This document shows positions 2,509-9,107 of a DNA stretch of 64,000 nucleotides, in pieces. A model generated the notes under the pieces. The model did not search any database. It saw only the letters and a program-made list of their open reading frames with translations, and had not been told where the DNA came from. The DNA is taken from assembly GCF_016595525.1 (NCBI RefSeq), contig NZ_JAENII010000007.1:1-64000 (forward strand), written 5' to 3'. The position numbers and the translations under genes were made by a program. This DNA comes from Haloferula rosea. Lineage in GTDB: Bacteria; Verrucomicrobiota; Verrucomicrobiia; Verrucomicrobiales; Akkermansiaceae. Positions within the stretch are counted from its first letter, which is position 1, and the number at the start of each line of letters is the position of its first letter.

Positions 2509-3984
2509 TCAGGCGAGGATCTGTTTCACCACATGCCCATGGACGTCGGTCAAACGGAACCGGCGGCCCTGGTGCTTGTGGATGATGGCGGTGTGATCGA
2601 GGCCGAGCTGATGGAGAATGGTCGCCTGAAGATCATGCACATGGACTGCATCCGGGTGATACGCATGCTTGTTCGGGTTGATCGGCATGCCATCGGCATC
2701 GACGATGCTGTAGCCATAGGGATCCGTGTTTCCGAAGGTCATGCCGGGACGGATGCCACCGCCCGCCATCCACATGCTGAAGCATCGTGGGTGGTGATCG
2801 CGGCCGTAGCTGGTGGCGGTCAGGCTCCCCTGTGAATACGCCGTGCGACCGAATTCACCGCCCCAGATGACGAGGGTGTCTTCGAGGAGACCCCGTTGTC
2901 TCAAATCCTTGATGAGTGCCGCAGATGCCTGATCGGTCTCCTTGGCCTGCCCACGAATGGCGGACGGCAGATTGTCATGCTGATCCCAACCCTGATGATA
3001 CAGCTGGATGAATCTCACGCCGCGCTCGGCCAATCGACGTGCCAACAGACAGTTTGCGGCATATGTCCCGGGTTTCCGGCTATCCTCTCCATACATCTCG
3101 AAGGTCGCCTCCTTTTCCGATGAGAGATCGGTGGCATCCGGCACGCTCGTTTGCATCCGGTAAGCCATCTCATACTGGGCGATCTTGGATTCGATCTCCG
3201 GATCGAGTTCGTTTTTGAACTGGATTTGTTCCAGTTCATTCAGGGCATCCAGGGTCGAGCGTCGACTGCTTCGGCAGATTCCCTCGGGATTGGACAGATA
3301 GAGAACGGGATCCTTGCCCGAACGGAACTGCACCCCCTGATATCTGGAATCGAGAAACCCGGACCCCCACAGGCGGGAATAGAGCGGTTGGCCGCCTTGC
3401 CCGGCGGAAACGAGCACGATGAATGAGGGTAGATTCTGATTCATCGCCCCGAGTCCGTAGGAAATCCACGAGCCCATCGATGGGCGCCCGGCAATCTGGG
3501 ATCCGGTTTGGAAAAAGGTGATCGCCGGATCATGATTGATGGCCTCGGTATACATCGAGCGAATCATGCAGATGTCGTCCGCGATCTCCCGGTGATGGGG
3601 AAGAAGTTCGCTGAGCCAGAGCCCGGAGTCTCCGTGTTGGCTGAACTCGAACTGTGACCCGGCCAACGGCAGCGATGACTGGTTCGCCGACATGCCCGTC
3701 AGTCGCTGACCTCCGCGCACCTCGGGCGGCAGTTGTTCACCGTTTCGCTCCCGGAGCAGGGGCTTCGGGTCAAACAGATCGTGTTGCGATGGGCCACCCG
3801 ACTGAAAGAGGTAGATGACACGTTTCGCTTTCGGGGCGAAGTTGGCAACTTTCGCCGCCGGCCCGCTGCCAAACGCCGGGCCGAGCATGCTGCCCAAGGC
3901 CAGGCCTCCGAGTCCAGTGGCGCTCTGCTTGAAAAAGTGCCTGCGGTTGATCCGCAAAAAATCGTCAATCGATGGGGGCTTCAT
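2509..3984 (-). CDS. DUF1501 family protein, Tat-exported
   Basis: Protein of 491 residues of the DUF1501 family, which has an alkaline-phosphatase/sulfatase-like fold and is greatly expanded in Planctomycetes and Verrucomicrobia. The N-terminus has a twin-arginine signal (NRRHFFKQSATGLGGLAL, residues 13-30), so export in folded form is likely. Family-typical stretches are seen: FQSGGPSQHDLFDPKP near residue 61 and VIWGGEFGRT in the C-terminal half. Its ATG overlaps the TGA of the upstream DUF1553 gene by 4 bases (ATGA), so the two are translationally coupled. The biochemical role of the family is not established; these gene pairs often sit with carbohydrate or sulfatase genes, but none are visible here. 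Confidence 0.93.
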   Translation of the reverse strand: MKPPSIDDFLRINRRHFFKQSATGLGGLALGSMLGPAFGSGPAAKVANFAPKAKRVIYLFQSGGPSQHDLFDPKPLLRERNGEQLPPEVRGGQRLTGMSANQSSLPLAGSQFEFSQHGDSGLWLSELLPHHREIADDICMIRSMYTEAINHDPAITFFQTGSQIAGRPSMGSWISYGLGAMNQNLPSFIVLVSAGQGGQPLYSRLWGSGFLDSRYQGVQFRSGKDPVLYLSNPEGICRSSRRSTLDALNELEQIQFKNELDPEIESKIAQYEMAYRMQTSVPDATDLSSEKEATFEMYGEDSRKPGTYAANCLLARRLAERGVRFIQLYHQGWDQHDNLPSAIRGQAKETDQASAALIKDLRQRGLLEDTLVIWGGEFGRTAYSQGSLTATSYGRDHHPRCFSMWMAGGGIRPGMTFGNTDPYGYSIVDADGMPINPNKHAYHPDAVHVHDLQATILHQLGLDHTAIIHKHQGRRFRLTDVHGHVVKQILA

Positions 3985-6900
3985 CTTTTCCAGAGCGTGG
4001 CGTCGAGGTTGAGGATGGCGAGGCAGACGCTGGTCGTCGCCGCAAGGTGGACTGGGTCGACTCCAGATGGCGCCGGCGCCTCTCCCTGGGCGATCAGCTT
4101 TGCCGCATCCTCCGGATGATCGGTGAAATAGGCCATCTCACTGCCATGCAGCCGGATGAGAATGTTCAGCTCTTCCGTCGAGGGCGGGCGCCCGGCGAGA
4201 CGGACGAACGCCGCCGTGATCTCAGTGGAAGGGTCTTGATGATGAACCGCCGTAGCGAGGGCCCGGGCTGCTTCAACGAACTGCACGTCATTCAGCATCA
4301 CCAGGGCTTGGAGCGGTGTATTGGTCCGCGGCCTCGATACGGCACAAACCTCACGAGTCGGCGCATCAAAGGCACTCATGTTCGGCAAGGGAGCGGTGCG
4401 TTTCCAAACCGAGTAGATGGAGCGACGGTGCAATGCCTTACCTGTCGACTGGCGGTAGGCCGGAGACATGCTGTTCGATTCCCTCCACAGATCTCCGCCA
4501 GGCTGATAGGGCGAGACCGGTGGTCCACCCACCGTGGGATCCATCAGGCCGGAGGCTTTCAATGCCGTATCTCGAATCTGTTCGGCAGCGAGCCGGTGAG
4601 CGGGCCCTCTTGCCAGCCTATGGTTCTCGGGATCCCGTTGGAGTGCATCCGGCGGGACACTTGAGTCTTGAGCGTAGGTATTCGACAGCGCAATGCGGCG
4701 ACATAGATGATGGATGTCCCAGCCGTGGGCGATAAAGTCCCTCGCGAGCCAGTCCAGAAGGTCAGGGTGGGTCGGAAGGCTTCCCTGCAACCCGAAGTTG
4801 TCTGCCGTGGATACAAGACCGCGACCAAAGAAATTTGCCCACATTCGATTGACGAAGACACGGGCAGTCAGGGGGTGATCCGGCTGCGTCAGCCACCTTG
4901 CAAGATCGAGCCGGTCAGGTGTGGAACCGCGGGGCCGAAGTGGGGGGAGGGCCTTCGGGGTATCCCGTTCGACACGGGTGGATTCATCGGTGGGCGCATC
5001 ATACTCCCCACGGGCCAGCACGTGGGTCTCACGCGGCTCCGGCAGTTCCCGCATGACCGGCATCGCACGGATTGATTCTTCGAGCATCACCTCGGCTTTG
5101 CGAGCTTCCATCATCTTCGCTGCGGCGGCCCTCGTGCCGGCATCCAGGGCCGATTGGAAATACTCGAGCAATTGTTCCCGCTGCGATCCAGGCTGGACCG
5201 CCAAACGGAGGATCGCATCCACATTCCCCTCATGTCTGACCTCCAACTCCGAGAGTTCCCTCCGGTAAATCTTCATTTGTCGGACTCCACCTCCTTGGAA
5301 CCCTCGATCCCTGAAACGCTGTCCGAGGGTCAGATGGCCGGACCCATAGGTTCGGATCATCGTTCGTTGCTGCATGTGGTCACGGAGGATTTCGATAGGT
5401 GCAGGCTTGCCATTGAGATGGATCTTCAAGCCCGACGCCTTGCTTGAACCGTCGTATGTGATGGTGACACGGGTCCATTCGCCAAGCTCGATGGGAGATT
5501 GCGTCCGCACCCCGATCCCGTTTCCAGGCCACACCCGATAGAGGCGCGCCGAAAGATGGCCATCTTCCAACATCAGGTCGAACCCGTTGTATCCCACGTC
5601 CGTTCCGAAGCACTTTTGGAGCACGACCACCGGATGGGCCTGCCTCAAGGAATCATGAAGGGTGAGATCGATGGAAAACGGACTCCAGCGGTCGATCTGC
5701 AGGTGACCCGGAAACACCGGCCCATGATCTCCATCGAGAACCAGATGCCGCCCGGCACCCTCCTCGACGATTGCAGCGCCCGCGAGTTTGGCTCCCTTCG
5801 GGCCTCCGGAGGCCAGATTCACCATGGCCTGATCGGGATCGGAGGTGAAATCATAATGCGCCTCGAGATCCACAGCGGCAGCAGGGACCGCGGGTTCCTC
5901 CAGCCACTTGATGAAACGGACCACGGATTGGCTTCGCACCGAACGGTGATCAGCTTCGGCCCGGCGCCGGGTGGCTTGCGCCGCCTTCAGCCTTTCGGTC
6001 TGTTCATCAGTCGGCAGCAGCATGGCTGGAGCCGGGATCTTCACCGAGCTGTCGTAGAGACCATTCTCGTCGATGGAATTGAAGAAACCACTAAGCGCGT
6101 AGTAATCGTGCGCGCTGATCGGATCATACTTGTGGTCGTGACAGCGGGAACACTCGAGTGTCAGTGCAAGGAACGCGGTCCCGAACGTATGGACCCGATC
6201 CGCGGCATTCTCCGCCATCCACTCTTCGCGGATGGAACCTCCTTCGTTTGTGAGTCGATGAAGCCGGTTGAAGGCGGAGGCCAATTCCTGGTCCTTGGAC
6301 GGTTGGTCGAAAACATCGCCGGCAATCTGCCAGGTTGCGAACTGATCATAGGGGAGGTTCGAATTGAATGCCCGGATCACCCAGTCTCGATAGGGCCACT
6401 GATGGTTGAGCTGGTCCGACTGGTAGCCATAGGAGTCGGCATAGCGGGCGGCGTCGAGCCAGGCGGATGCCATGTGTTCCCCGTAGGCCGGCGAATGCAG
6501 CAGGCGTTCAACGACCGCCTCCTTGGCCGCACGTCGATCCAATGAACCATCTGCCTTGAAAGCCTCAATCTCGGAGGAACTCGGTGGTAGACCGGTGAGA
6601 TCAAGAGTCACACGTCTGAGCCATCGGGTGTCAGCAGCAGGAGTGTTTGGCTTCAGCCCATCGGATTCCAGCGAATCGAGGACGAAGGCATCGATCGGGT
6701 TCTCGACCCATCCTGCCATCTTCGGAGTGGGGACCTCGATGGCTTTCCGCAGTGGCACAAAGGCCCAGTGCGCTTCGTAGACCGCGCCCTGCTCGATCCA
6801 CCGCTTCAGGATTTCCTTCTCCTGGCCACTCAATGAGAGATTCGAGTCAGGAGGCGGCATGATCTCGTCTTGATCGGTCGAAAGCATTCGCTTCCAGGCG

Positions 6901-7130
6901 ACGGATGCTTCCGGGGAACCCGGGACGATGGCATGGCCGGATGACTCCTCGAGCGCCGCGTAGGCGGAGTCCGCGCGATCGAGGCGCAGCCCTGCCTTGT
7001 TGTTCTCCACATCCGGCCCGTGACAGAGAAAGCATTTGTCGGACAAGATCGGCCGGACCTGCTCGTTGTAGGAGATGGTCTCACCAAGAAGCGGCGAGAT
7101 GAGCAGGAGGGCAGTGAGCTGACGAAACAT
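3981..7130 (-). CDS. PSCyt1-DUF1549-LamG-DUF1553 protein, predicted exported c-type cytochrome
   Basis: Large secreted protein of 1,049 residues typical of the Planctomycetes-Verrucomicrobia group. A short hydrophobic signal is followed by a planctomycete cytochrome domain with a haem-attachment motif CFLCH (residues 33-37). Then come a DUF1549 domain containing a second CxxCH-type motif (CSRCHDHKYDP), a concanavalin/LamG-like beta-sandwich in the middle third, and DUF1553 in the C-terminal third (TARVFVNRMWANFFGRGLV, then NTPLQALVMLND). LamG domains commonly bind polysaccharide, so a redox role at the cell envelope near glycans is a reasonable inference. It is the first gene of a two-gene operon with the DUF1501 gene. 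The start ATG at 7130 fits a signal peptide immediately after it. Confidence 0.93.
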   Translation of the reverse strand: MFRQLTALLLISPLLGETISYNEQVRPILSDKCFLCHGPDVENNKAGLRLDRADSAYAALEESSGHAIVPGSPEASVAWKRMLSTDQDEIMPPPDSNLSLSGQEKEILKRWIEQGAVYEAHWAFVPLRKAIEVPTPKMAGWVENPIDAFVLDSLESDGLKPNTPAADTRWLRRVTLDLTGLPPSSSEIEAFKADGSLDRRAAKEAVVERLLHSPAYGEHMASAWLDAARYADSYGYQSDQLNHQWPYRDWVIRAFNSNLPYDQFATWQIAGDVFDQPSKDQELASAFNRLHRLTNEGGSIREEWMAENAADRVHTFGTAFLALTLECSRCHDHKYDPISAHDYYALSGFFNSIDENGLYDSSVKIPAPAMLLPTDEQTERLKAAQATRRRAEADHRSVRSQSVVRFIKWLEEPAVPAAAVDLEAHYDFTSDPDQAMVNLASGGPKGAKLAGAAIVEEGAGRHLVLDGDHGPVFPGHLQIDRWSPFSIDLTLHDSLRQAHPVVVLQKCFGTDVGYNGFDLMLEDGHLSARLYRVWPGNGIGVRTQSPIELGEWTRVTITYDGSSKASGLKIHLNGKPAPIEILRDHMQQRTMIRTYGSGHLTLGQRFRDRGFQGGGVRQMKIYRRELSELEVRHEGNVDAILRLAVQPGSQREQLLEYFQSALDAGTRAAAAKMMEARKAEVMLEESIRAMPVMRELPEPRETHVLARGEYDAPTDESTRVERDTPKALPPLRPRGSTPDRLDLARWLTQPDHPLTARVFVNRMWANFFGRGLVSTADNFGLQGSLPTHPDLLDWLARDFIAHGWDIHHLCRRIALSNTYAQDSSVPPDALQRDPENHRLARGPAHRLAAEQIRDTALKASGLMDPTVGGPPVSPYQPGGDLWRESNSMSPAYRQSTGKALHRRSIYSVWKRTAPLPNMSAFDAPTREVCAVSRPRTNTPLQALVMLNDVQFVEAARALATAVHHQDPSTEITAAFVRLAGRPPSTEELNILIRLHGSEMAYFTDHPEDAAKLIAQGEAPAPSGVDPVHLAATTSVCLAILNLDATLWKR

Positions 7131-7328: not shown

Positions 7329-8330
7329 ATGTGGATGAGAACAATATTGGTGATTTGGGCGGCGATGGGTTTGTCATTGGGGCAGGCCGCCGCGTCTGCG
7401 GAGGTCGGTGAGCCTGATATCGCCGCGCCACCCGGCCAGACCAAGGTGACGGTCGGCGTCTACTTGATCGACTTGATCGAAGTGGATGGAGCCTCCCAGA
7501 CGTTCACCGCGGACCTGTGGTTCAAGTTGAGCTGGAACGACCCTCGGCTGGCCAAGCCCGGCAGCGGCTTGCGTCGAATGGACCGGGCTGATGTCTGGTA
7601 TCCCAAGCTTCTCCCATCCAATCAACGCTCCGGCGACCCCAAGTGGCCGGATGAGGTTCTGGTCGATGACGAAGGCACGGTGGTTTATCGGCAGAGGAGT
7701 GTCAGCACCTTCGCCTGCCCGTTGGACCTCAGGAAGTTCCCGCACGATGTTCAAAGCCTGCATGCTTTGGTGCTGGGGGTCGAATCGACACCCGAAGATC
7801 TGGTCTTCGAAGTCGACGAGGCGGGAAGTGGCCGCTCGAAATCCTTCACCATCACCGACTGGGAGGCCGGCGAGTTCCGTTTGACCTCAGGTACCCATCA
7901 GGTCGCGGGAGTATGCATCGAGGTCCCGAGTTTCCGGATCGACTTCAAGGTGACGCGGCTGAGTCGTTATTATCTGGGCACCATCTTCTCCACCGTTGCC
8001 ATCATCGCCCTGATGGCCTGGCTGGTGTATTGGCTACCGGTGGGAACGCTGCCGCCACGCGTCAGTGTGTCAGTCACCTCAATGCTGGCCCTGATTGCCT
8101 ATCGATTCGTCGCGGCCCAAGACCTCCCGAAGTTGCCCTACCTGACGAGCATGGATTTCTTCCTGCTTGGAGCCGCGGTGTTGATCCTTGTCGGGCTGAC
8201 CACCGTGGTGGTCGTTGCCAATCAAGACGGGAAGGGGAACACCCAACTGGCGAAGCGGCTCAATCTGGTGTTCCGCTGGGCCTATCCGTTGGTGCTGCTC
8301 GCACTGTTGGCGGCTTTCGCCACGAGCTGA
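7329..8330 (+). CDS. Pentameric ligand-gated ion channel homologue (GLIC/ELIC-like)
   Basis: Predicted exported, membrane-embedded channel subunit of 333 residues, the length of prokaryotic Cys-loop receptor homologues. A signal peptide (residues 1-24) precedes a beta-rich extracellular domain with the family WxP element (DVWYPKLLPSNQ, residues 88-99). The loop CPLDLRKFPHDVQSL (130-144) matches the receptor signature, including FPxD and the following Gln. Four hydrophobic helices follow in the right order: M1 about 212-236 after an RYY pre-M1 motif, M2 242-265 starting PPRVSVSV, M3 275-298, and a short M4 315-332. The intracellular M3-M4 linker is very short, as in bacterial members. Unlike GLIC it keeps the first Cys of the Cys-loop; the second is Leu144. 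Ligand and ion selectivity cannot be assigned. A STAS/SEC14-like gene follows after 33 bases. Confidence 0.88.
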   Translation: MWMRTILVIWAAMGLSLGQAAASAEVGEPDIAAPPGQTKVTVGVYLIDLIEVDGASQTFTADLWFKLSWNDPRLAKPGSGLRRMDRADVWYPKLLPSNQRSGDPKWPDEVLVDDEGTVVYRQRSVSTFACPLDLRKFPHDVQSLHALVLGVESTPEDLVFEVDEAGSGRSKSFTITDWEAGEFRLTSGTHQVAGVCIEVPSFRIDFKVTRLSRYYLGTIFSTVAIIALMAWLVYWLPVGTLPPRVSVSVTSMLALIAYRFVAAQDLPKLPYLTSMDFFLLGAAVLILVGLTTVVVVANQDGKGNTQLAKRLNLVFRWAYPLVLLALLAAFATS

Positions 8331-8363: not shown

Positions 8364-9107
8364 ATGCTTTCCACCATGATCGATCTCAAGATTCAGCCGG
8401 ACGGTGTGCTCATCATTCGTCCCACCAGCGGGCTTTCCGAAGCCGATTTCGACGGGCTGAATGATGCCGTAGATGCCCATCTCGCAGCGGGCGGACAGCT
8501 CCGCGGATTGGTGATCGATGCCCCGAGTTTCCCCGGTTGGGCCTCCCTTTCCGGCTTGGTTTCCCACATCAGGTTCGTGAAGGACCACCACCGCTTGTTG
8601 TCGCGCGTGGCATTCGTTTCGGACAACGGGTTCCTCCAAGCGCTGCCGAAGGTCGGGAGGCACTTCGTTCAGGCGGAGGTGCGGCACTTCGATGGCGGTG
8701 AGGCAGCCGAGGCGATTCAATGGGTCAGCGAAGCTCCCGTGAATCCGGACCACTCGCTGCGCTGGGCTTGGTTCCCCGAGGAGACCGTGATGTGGGTTTC
8801 GGTCGATGGGAAGGTGACCAGTGCGGGATACCGGAAGCTGCTCGACAAGATGGAGGAGATCCTGAAGCAGCAGTCACCCATCTCCTTTCTGGTCAATCTT
8901 GAGAATCTCGACGATTTCGAACTGGGCGCGATGATGGCGGACATGAGGTTCGGGTTTTCCCACCTCAAACACTTCAAGCGAATCGCCCTCGTGGGTCACG
9001 AAGGGTGGATCCGGAAACTGACCAGCCTGCCCAACCCGTTTTCCGTTCAGGTGAAGGCCTTCACCAAGGATGAGGAGGAGGGGGCTTGGAATTGGTTGGC
9101 GGAATGA
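8364..9107 (+). CDS. Tandem STAS/SEC14-like (SpoIIAA-like) domain protein
   Basis: Cytosolic protein of 247 residues made of two similar SpoIIAA/SEC14-like STAS units, about residues 5-120 and 127-247. Both halves start with a beta strand and a turn (GVLIIRPTSGLSEADF; VMWVSVDGKVTSAGY). Both then run through a helix and a strand (RGLVIDAPSFPGW; ISFLVNLENLDDF) to a helix-strand pair with HIRFVKDHHRLLSRVAFVSD or MRFGFSHLKHFKRIALVGH. The family is thought to bind small hydrophobic molecules, but its role is not settled. Start at 8364 is preferred because a GGAG lies about 11 bases upstream; a second ATG at 8376 is possible. It probably shares a transcript with the channel gene. No phosphorylatable serine site of anti-sigma antagonist type is evident. 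Confidence 0.75.
   Translation: MLSTMIDLKIQPDGVLIIRPTSGLSEADFDGLNDAVDAHLAAGGQLRGLVIDAPSFPGWASLSGLVSHIRFVKDHHRLLSRVAFVSDNGFLQALPKVGRHFVQAEVRHFDGGEAAEAIQWVSEAPVNPDHSLRWAWFPEETVMWVSVDGKVTSAGYRKLLDKMEEILKQQSPISFLVNLENLDDFELGAMMADMRFGFSHLKHFKRIALVGHEGWIRKLTSLPNPFSVQVKAFTKDEEEGAWNWLAE

Follow-up and report, generated by a model that had tools for sequence, protein, structure and literature searches.

A gene in the window, the whole 64,000-nucleotide stretch of Haloferula rosea contig NZ_JAENII010000007.1 that we analysed, encodes a genuine subunit of the pentameric ligand-gated ion channel (pLGIC, or Pro-loop) superfamily, and on both sequence and model comparisons it is an ordinary new member. The explanation that best joins our observations, to which we give a probability of roughly 80%, is that of a homopentameric channel subunit in which the lone loop cysteine, Cys130, is a minor substitution and the acid-free inner mouth of the pore probably does not select for cations and may favour anions.

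The open reading frame comprises 333 codons and a stop, with an in-frame ATG at 7335 as an alternative start (Table 1). The product contains PF02931 (63.6 bits, E 2.3e-17, residues 37-143; Pfam cut-off 26) and PF02932 (40.8 bits, E 4e-10; cut-off 28.1), and is the sole PF02931 match in its own genome (1 match). Sequence matches in the PDB include a chimera of GLIC and the glycine receptor (4x5t, E 7.3e-31), a GLIC chain (3tlt, E 4.8e-27) and the zebrafish glycine receptor (3jad, E 7.7e-26), and Foldseek matched the predicted structure to GLIC, glycine receptor, GABA-A receptor and sTeLIC structures with E near 1e-26 and TM-scores of 0.77-0.85 among the 50 matches listed. With both Pfam domains above cut-off and a fold matching GLIC and the glycine and GABA-A receptors, the assignment to this channel family made in the original prediction holds, and the Pfam domains, the genome-wide PF02931 match and the Foldseek matches rule out a chance or spurious reading frame. 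Superfamily residues present in the protein are F137, P138, D140, R210, W178 (the beta9 tryptophan) and P267 (the M2-M3 proline), following the list of conserved residues ([FY]PxD, pre-M1 Arg, beta9 Trp, M2-M3 Pro) in Table 1 of the accessible part of Jaiteh, Taly and Henin (2016; PMC4795631). The proline that kinks M1 is missing from the query (Thr/Val there), as it is from its relatives L003, L027 and L024; it occurs in 77% of the superfamily according to the same portion of PMC4795631, so it is no strict criterion.

Table 1 Features of the channel gene, its product and the downstream gene, in window coordinates.
Feature	Position	Strand	Basis or remark
pLGIC subunit gene (query), 333 aa	7329..8330	+	ORF list; PF02931 and PF02932; fold match to GLIC, glycine and GABA-A receptors
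Probable signal peptide, ~residues 1-23	7329..7397	+	Hydrophobic N-terminal helix 2-22 in model, low confidence; read from sequence
Periplasmic (extracellular-type) ligand-binding domain, ~residues 37-210	7437..7958	+	PF02931 at 37-143; model strands 38-210
beta6-beta7 'Cys/Pro' loop, residues 130-144, CPLDLRKFPHDVQSL	7716..7760	+	Aligned to GLIC
Cys130 codon	7716-7718	+	Query loop
Leu144 codon	7758-7760	+	Query loop
Cys196, just before beta10, the other cysteine of the query	7914..7916	+	
Arg210, pre-M1 arginine, expected partner of Asp140	7956..7958	+	Arg in 76/78 rows
M1 helix, residues 212-235, without the common M1 proline	7962..8033	+	Model
M2 pore helix, residues 241-263	8049..8117	+	Model
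M3 helix, residues 274-301	8148..8231	+	Model
M4 helix, residues 305-332; three residues only between M3 and M4	8241..8324	+	Model
Neighbouring gene with two SpoIIAA-like (PF11964) stretches	8364..9107	+	33 bp downstream of query

The AlphaFold model, which is of a monomer, has a mean pLDDT of 88.6, with the blocks covering residues 121-150 at 91-95. Four membrane helices, as originally predicted, follow an all-beta ectodomain in this model, and the N-terminal helix fits the signal peptide that had also been proposed, though at low confidence. The top Foldseek match, GLIC, shares with the query its domain order, a YPxD/FPxD loop and a leucine at the second-cysteine position, while differing in overall sequence (~23% identity) and in an M1-M2 linker that is two residues longer in the query. 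Animal receptors carry a cysteine at the first loop position and a large loop between M3 and M4. The query resembles the animal glycine and GABA-A receptors in fold, in that first loop cysteine, in the length of the M1-M2 linker (read from the alignment of the GLIC-GLRA1 chimera) and in four pore positions (Pro at -2', Arg at 0', Thr at 6' and Leu at 9'). Unlike them, it has no large M3-M4 loop and no second loop cysteine, and so no Cys-loop disulfide; a further difference is its Pro at -1', where L027 has Ala.

The feature that had drawn attention to this gene was the beta6-beta7 loop, originally described as half of a Cys-loop. Its residues are as given there (Cys130, Asp133, FPHD at 137-140, Gln142 and Leu144), and CPLDLRKFPHDVQSL aligns with the GLIC loop in HMMER without a gap, Cys130 standing opposite Ser and Leu144 opposite Leu. 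This alignment, with which the model agrees, establishes the loop as equivalent to the Cys-loop and rules out a non-equivalent segment. The original prediction had also counted the Asp, FPxD and Gln positions as an animal-receptor signature, but GLIC has counterparts of all three, and they are therefore features of the superfamily. The animal-type Cys-loop itself, with two cysteines 13 residues apart and a disulfide between them, is absent, since residue 144 is leucine and the only cysteines of the protein are 130 and 196. By the strands of the model, Cys130 comes directly after beta6, a strand leading into the loop that faces the membrane, and Cys196 lies 14 residues before Arg210; if these strand limits hold, the two should be at opposite ends of the ectodomain. 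The strand limits, together with the finding that Cys196 is alone in its alignment column, led us to reject a disulfide between Cys130 and Cys196 within one subunit. The rows with Cys130 have no second cysteine in common, the other ectodomain cysteine of L027 being elsewhere.

To place the lone cysteine among relatives, we compared 78 usable aligned sequences (rows), all from Verrucomicrobiota and including the query, after removing duplicates; a 79th row is a fragment without the key columns. The set had grown from 66 to 78 rows when 13 more matches were fetched, and the share of Cys130 went from 4/66 to 4/78. Genomes with a pLGIC match numbered 17/387 in the search of the phylum, 28/384 in the class, 40/386 in the order (with the A2 alignment profile), 13/195 in the family and 2/18 in the genus, where the gene is thus patchy; the genome draws of these searches overlap, and the counts are not additive. 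Two further searches centred on other members of the phylum, and covering largely the same genomes, each gave a match in 3/197. A pattern scan of contigs made 56 matches and led to four named loci (Opitutaceae, Puniceicoccaceae, Opitutia and Verrucomicrobiia), a contig scan for close relatives with the query protein alone found nothing for any of 19 stretches, and tblastn against plasmids returned no match. An alignment of 13 rows contained no segment sufficiently conserved to serve in such a scan. Across the 78 rows Pro138 is invariant (78/78), Asp140 is present in 77 (one Glu), and the two rows without Arg210 have Ser.

Position 130 is variable and mostly polar in this set, with Gln in 22 rows, Thr in 17, Ser in 12, Ala in 6, Lys in 5, Cys in 4, Gly in 3, Glu, Asn and Asp in 2 each, and His, Met and Val in 1 each, and position 144 is hydrophobic throughout (Leu 55, Phe 17, Ile 5, Val 1), with cysteine in none. 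The four Cys130 rows are the query, L027 from genome G473 of the same genus, L013 from the same family, and the remote L016. In the survey of relatives that had been proposed, Cys130 thus recurs in a congener and is not absent from all close relatives; cysteine at residue 144 occurs in none of the 78 rows. The query falls in a clade of seven rows with L027, L024, L003, L063, L064 and L066 (support 100/99 in the 62-row tree), and the five of these relatives that were compared are 38-43% identical to it; L027 shares 127/332 aligned residues (38%). Within the clade only the query and L027 have Cys130, the other five rows having Thr or Ser. By parsimony, Cys130 requires three changes on a tree of 62/65 rows from which that column was left out, and four on a quicker tree that takes in more sequences (73/79 rows). 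Forcing the query and L027 to be sisters made the tree 1.47 log units worse (p-AU 0.383), a difference that neither establishes nor excludes their sisterhood. Column 130, with its four cysteines, shares second place in cysteine count with two others among 177 ectodomain columns. The highest count belongs to the column of residue 118, at the start of beta6, where 10/79 rows have cysteine, including L013, L028, L052 and L059 of the acid-bearing group described below. On these counts position 130 takes cysteine somewhat more often than the average site, a tendency that does not amount to a half-formed disulfide.

These distributions bear on what the lone cysteine means. It had been interpreted as an intermediate evolutionary state, in which the clade would have gained the first cysteine of the Cys-loop on the path to, or as a relic of, the animal form. 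Cys130 does stand exactly at the first-cysteine position, and it occurs in each of the two congeneric genomes with the gene; yet the second cysteine occurs in 0/78 rows with leucine as the standard residue there, Cys130 arises three or four times, remote branches included, and the nearest relatives besides L027 carry Ser or Thr. In the accessible part of PMC4795631 the authors suggest that an ancient unicellular eukaryote was where the loop cysteines first appeared. We consider the intermediate interpretation very improbable. Another reading gives Cys130 a job specific to the lineage, as a redox- or metal-sensing thiol or in a disulfide with another subunit or a partner protein at the coupling interface. 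That the two congeneric genomes with the gene both have it gives some room for such a role: a cysteine common to two proteins of only 38% identity was either kept or gained twice, and its column ranks high in cysteine count. Only these two sequences speak for it, however, the five other members of the clade lack Cys130 and no second cysteine is held in common, so we regard this role as unlikely, if less so than an evolutionary intermediate.

We instead read the lone cysteine, from its distribution in the alignment, as a recurrent single-residue change, small and repeatedly evolved, and the half loop therefore says nothing on the origin of the animal Cys-loop. Cys130 would then be a minor substitution at a site occupied in most relatives by Gln, Thr or Ser, and not part of a half-built Cys-loop. 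The bacterial norm described in the accessible text of PMC4795631 is a loop free of cysteine with a polar and then a hydrophobic residue at the two positions, and by sequence the query fits this pattern except for Cys in place of the polar residue. That portion of PMC4795631 does not discuss natural sequences with a single loop cysteine, and among the matches listed in the open-licence literature we found no title with a half Cys-loop as its subject.

The pore offers the testable lead. M2 of the query has Pro242 at -2', Pro243 at -1', Arg244 at 0', Ser246 at 2', Thr250 at 6', Leu253 at 9' and Ala257 at 13', leaving the inner mouth with no acidic residue at -2' or -1'. The sequence at -2'/-1'/0' is thus Pro-Pro-Arg in the query, compared with Pro-Ala-Arg in L027, which is also the glycine receptor sequence, and Asn-Pro-Arg in the other five rows of the seven-row clade, all of which are acid-free before M2. 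A larger clade around the query (30 rows with SH-aLRT 98 in the quicker tree; 28 rows with support 100/98 in the 62-row tree) has Asp or Glu at -2'/-1' in 0/30 rows, versus 29/29 of the nearest rows outside it. Such an acid is also present in 11/14 other rows of the tree, being absent from L014, L015 and L107, and the acid state changes four times by parsimony on the 73/79-row tree, the trees being midpoint-rooted only. In an earlier count, Thr occupied 6' in 29/29 rows of the clade; among the acid-bearing rows, 23/28 had Val or Ile there. The clade is mixed in other respects: 0' is Gln or Asn, not Arg, in 17/29 rows, and 20/29 carry an acidic residue at some other point of the M1-M2 linker, the query and L027 being among the 9/29 with none in the linker (236-243).

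ELIC and GLIC, the two prokaryotic channels named in the accessible part of PMC9874803, are both cation-selective and have Glu at -2', where the query has Pro; the same text counts the loss of Glu at -1' among the changes by which nicotinic receptors become anion-selective. From these facts and the missing -2'/-1' acid we infer that the open pore of the query is probably not cation-selective and may be anion-permeable. The anionic-type signature (no acid at -2'/-1', with Pro/Ala before a basic 0') is found in the query and L027 as a sequence signature only. Charges in the linker, at the outer mouth or in the vestibule could nevertheless give a cation-selective or a non-selective pore even without that acid, and we put the odds of this at only a little under even. 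It draws on the warning in the available portion of PMC4795631 that the motif is in general insufficient to predict selectivity in prokaryotes, on Asp265 of the query near the outer pore mouth and on the linker acids of most clade rows, but the query and L027 have no acid in that linker and both combine Pro at -2' with Arg at 0'. With odds somewhat below even, this whole clade of Verrucomicrobiota pLGICs may have swapped the acidic ring of the inner mouth for uncharged residues (Pro/Ser/Thr/Ala at -1') and constitute a lineage of bacterial anion channels or of channels not selective for cations, in which the query and L027 would have reached the animal Pro-x-Arg form independently of animals. 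We found no title describing a prokaryotic anion-selective pLGIC among the matches listed, and no paper on Verrucomicrobia and pentameric ligand-gated channels, in the open-licence literature. The 0/30 versus 29/29 split in acidic residues provides a natural test of the determinants of charge selectivity outside the animal receptors.

By homology, five subunits would surround one pore in the inner membrane of this Verrucomicrobiia bacterium, with the periplasmic ectodomain sensing a small molecule or pH. Movement of the ectodomain would be passed through the beta6-beta7 loop, where Asp140 would pair with Arg210 in a salt bridge of the type stated in the accessible part of PMC4795631, and through the M2-M3 loop, and the pore would open. 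Its inner mouth carries Pro242-Pro243-Arg244 where cation channels have an acidic ring.

The gene is possibly co-transcribed with the SpoIIAA-like gene immediately downstream. This neighbour had no match at any other pLGIC locus (113 loci, most with flanks of ~1.5 kb and seven with ~5 kb) and therefore gives no functional lead. On the other side, in divergent orientation, the window encodes a 1049-aa PSCyt1/PSCyt2/PSD1 protein with a LamG-like domain (3981-7130, - strand). In the congener, a 247-bp stretch at ~6152-6398 of locus L060 (G473:C113:14500-25500) is repeated ~2.3 kb downstream at ~8452-8698 with 93% identity; the repeated stretch spans the 3' end of the pLGIC gene and beyond, and the repeat leaves a short fragment resembling M4, which was matched at G473:C113:22949-23047.
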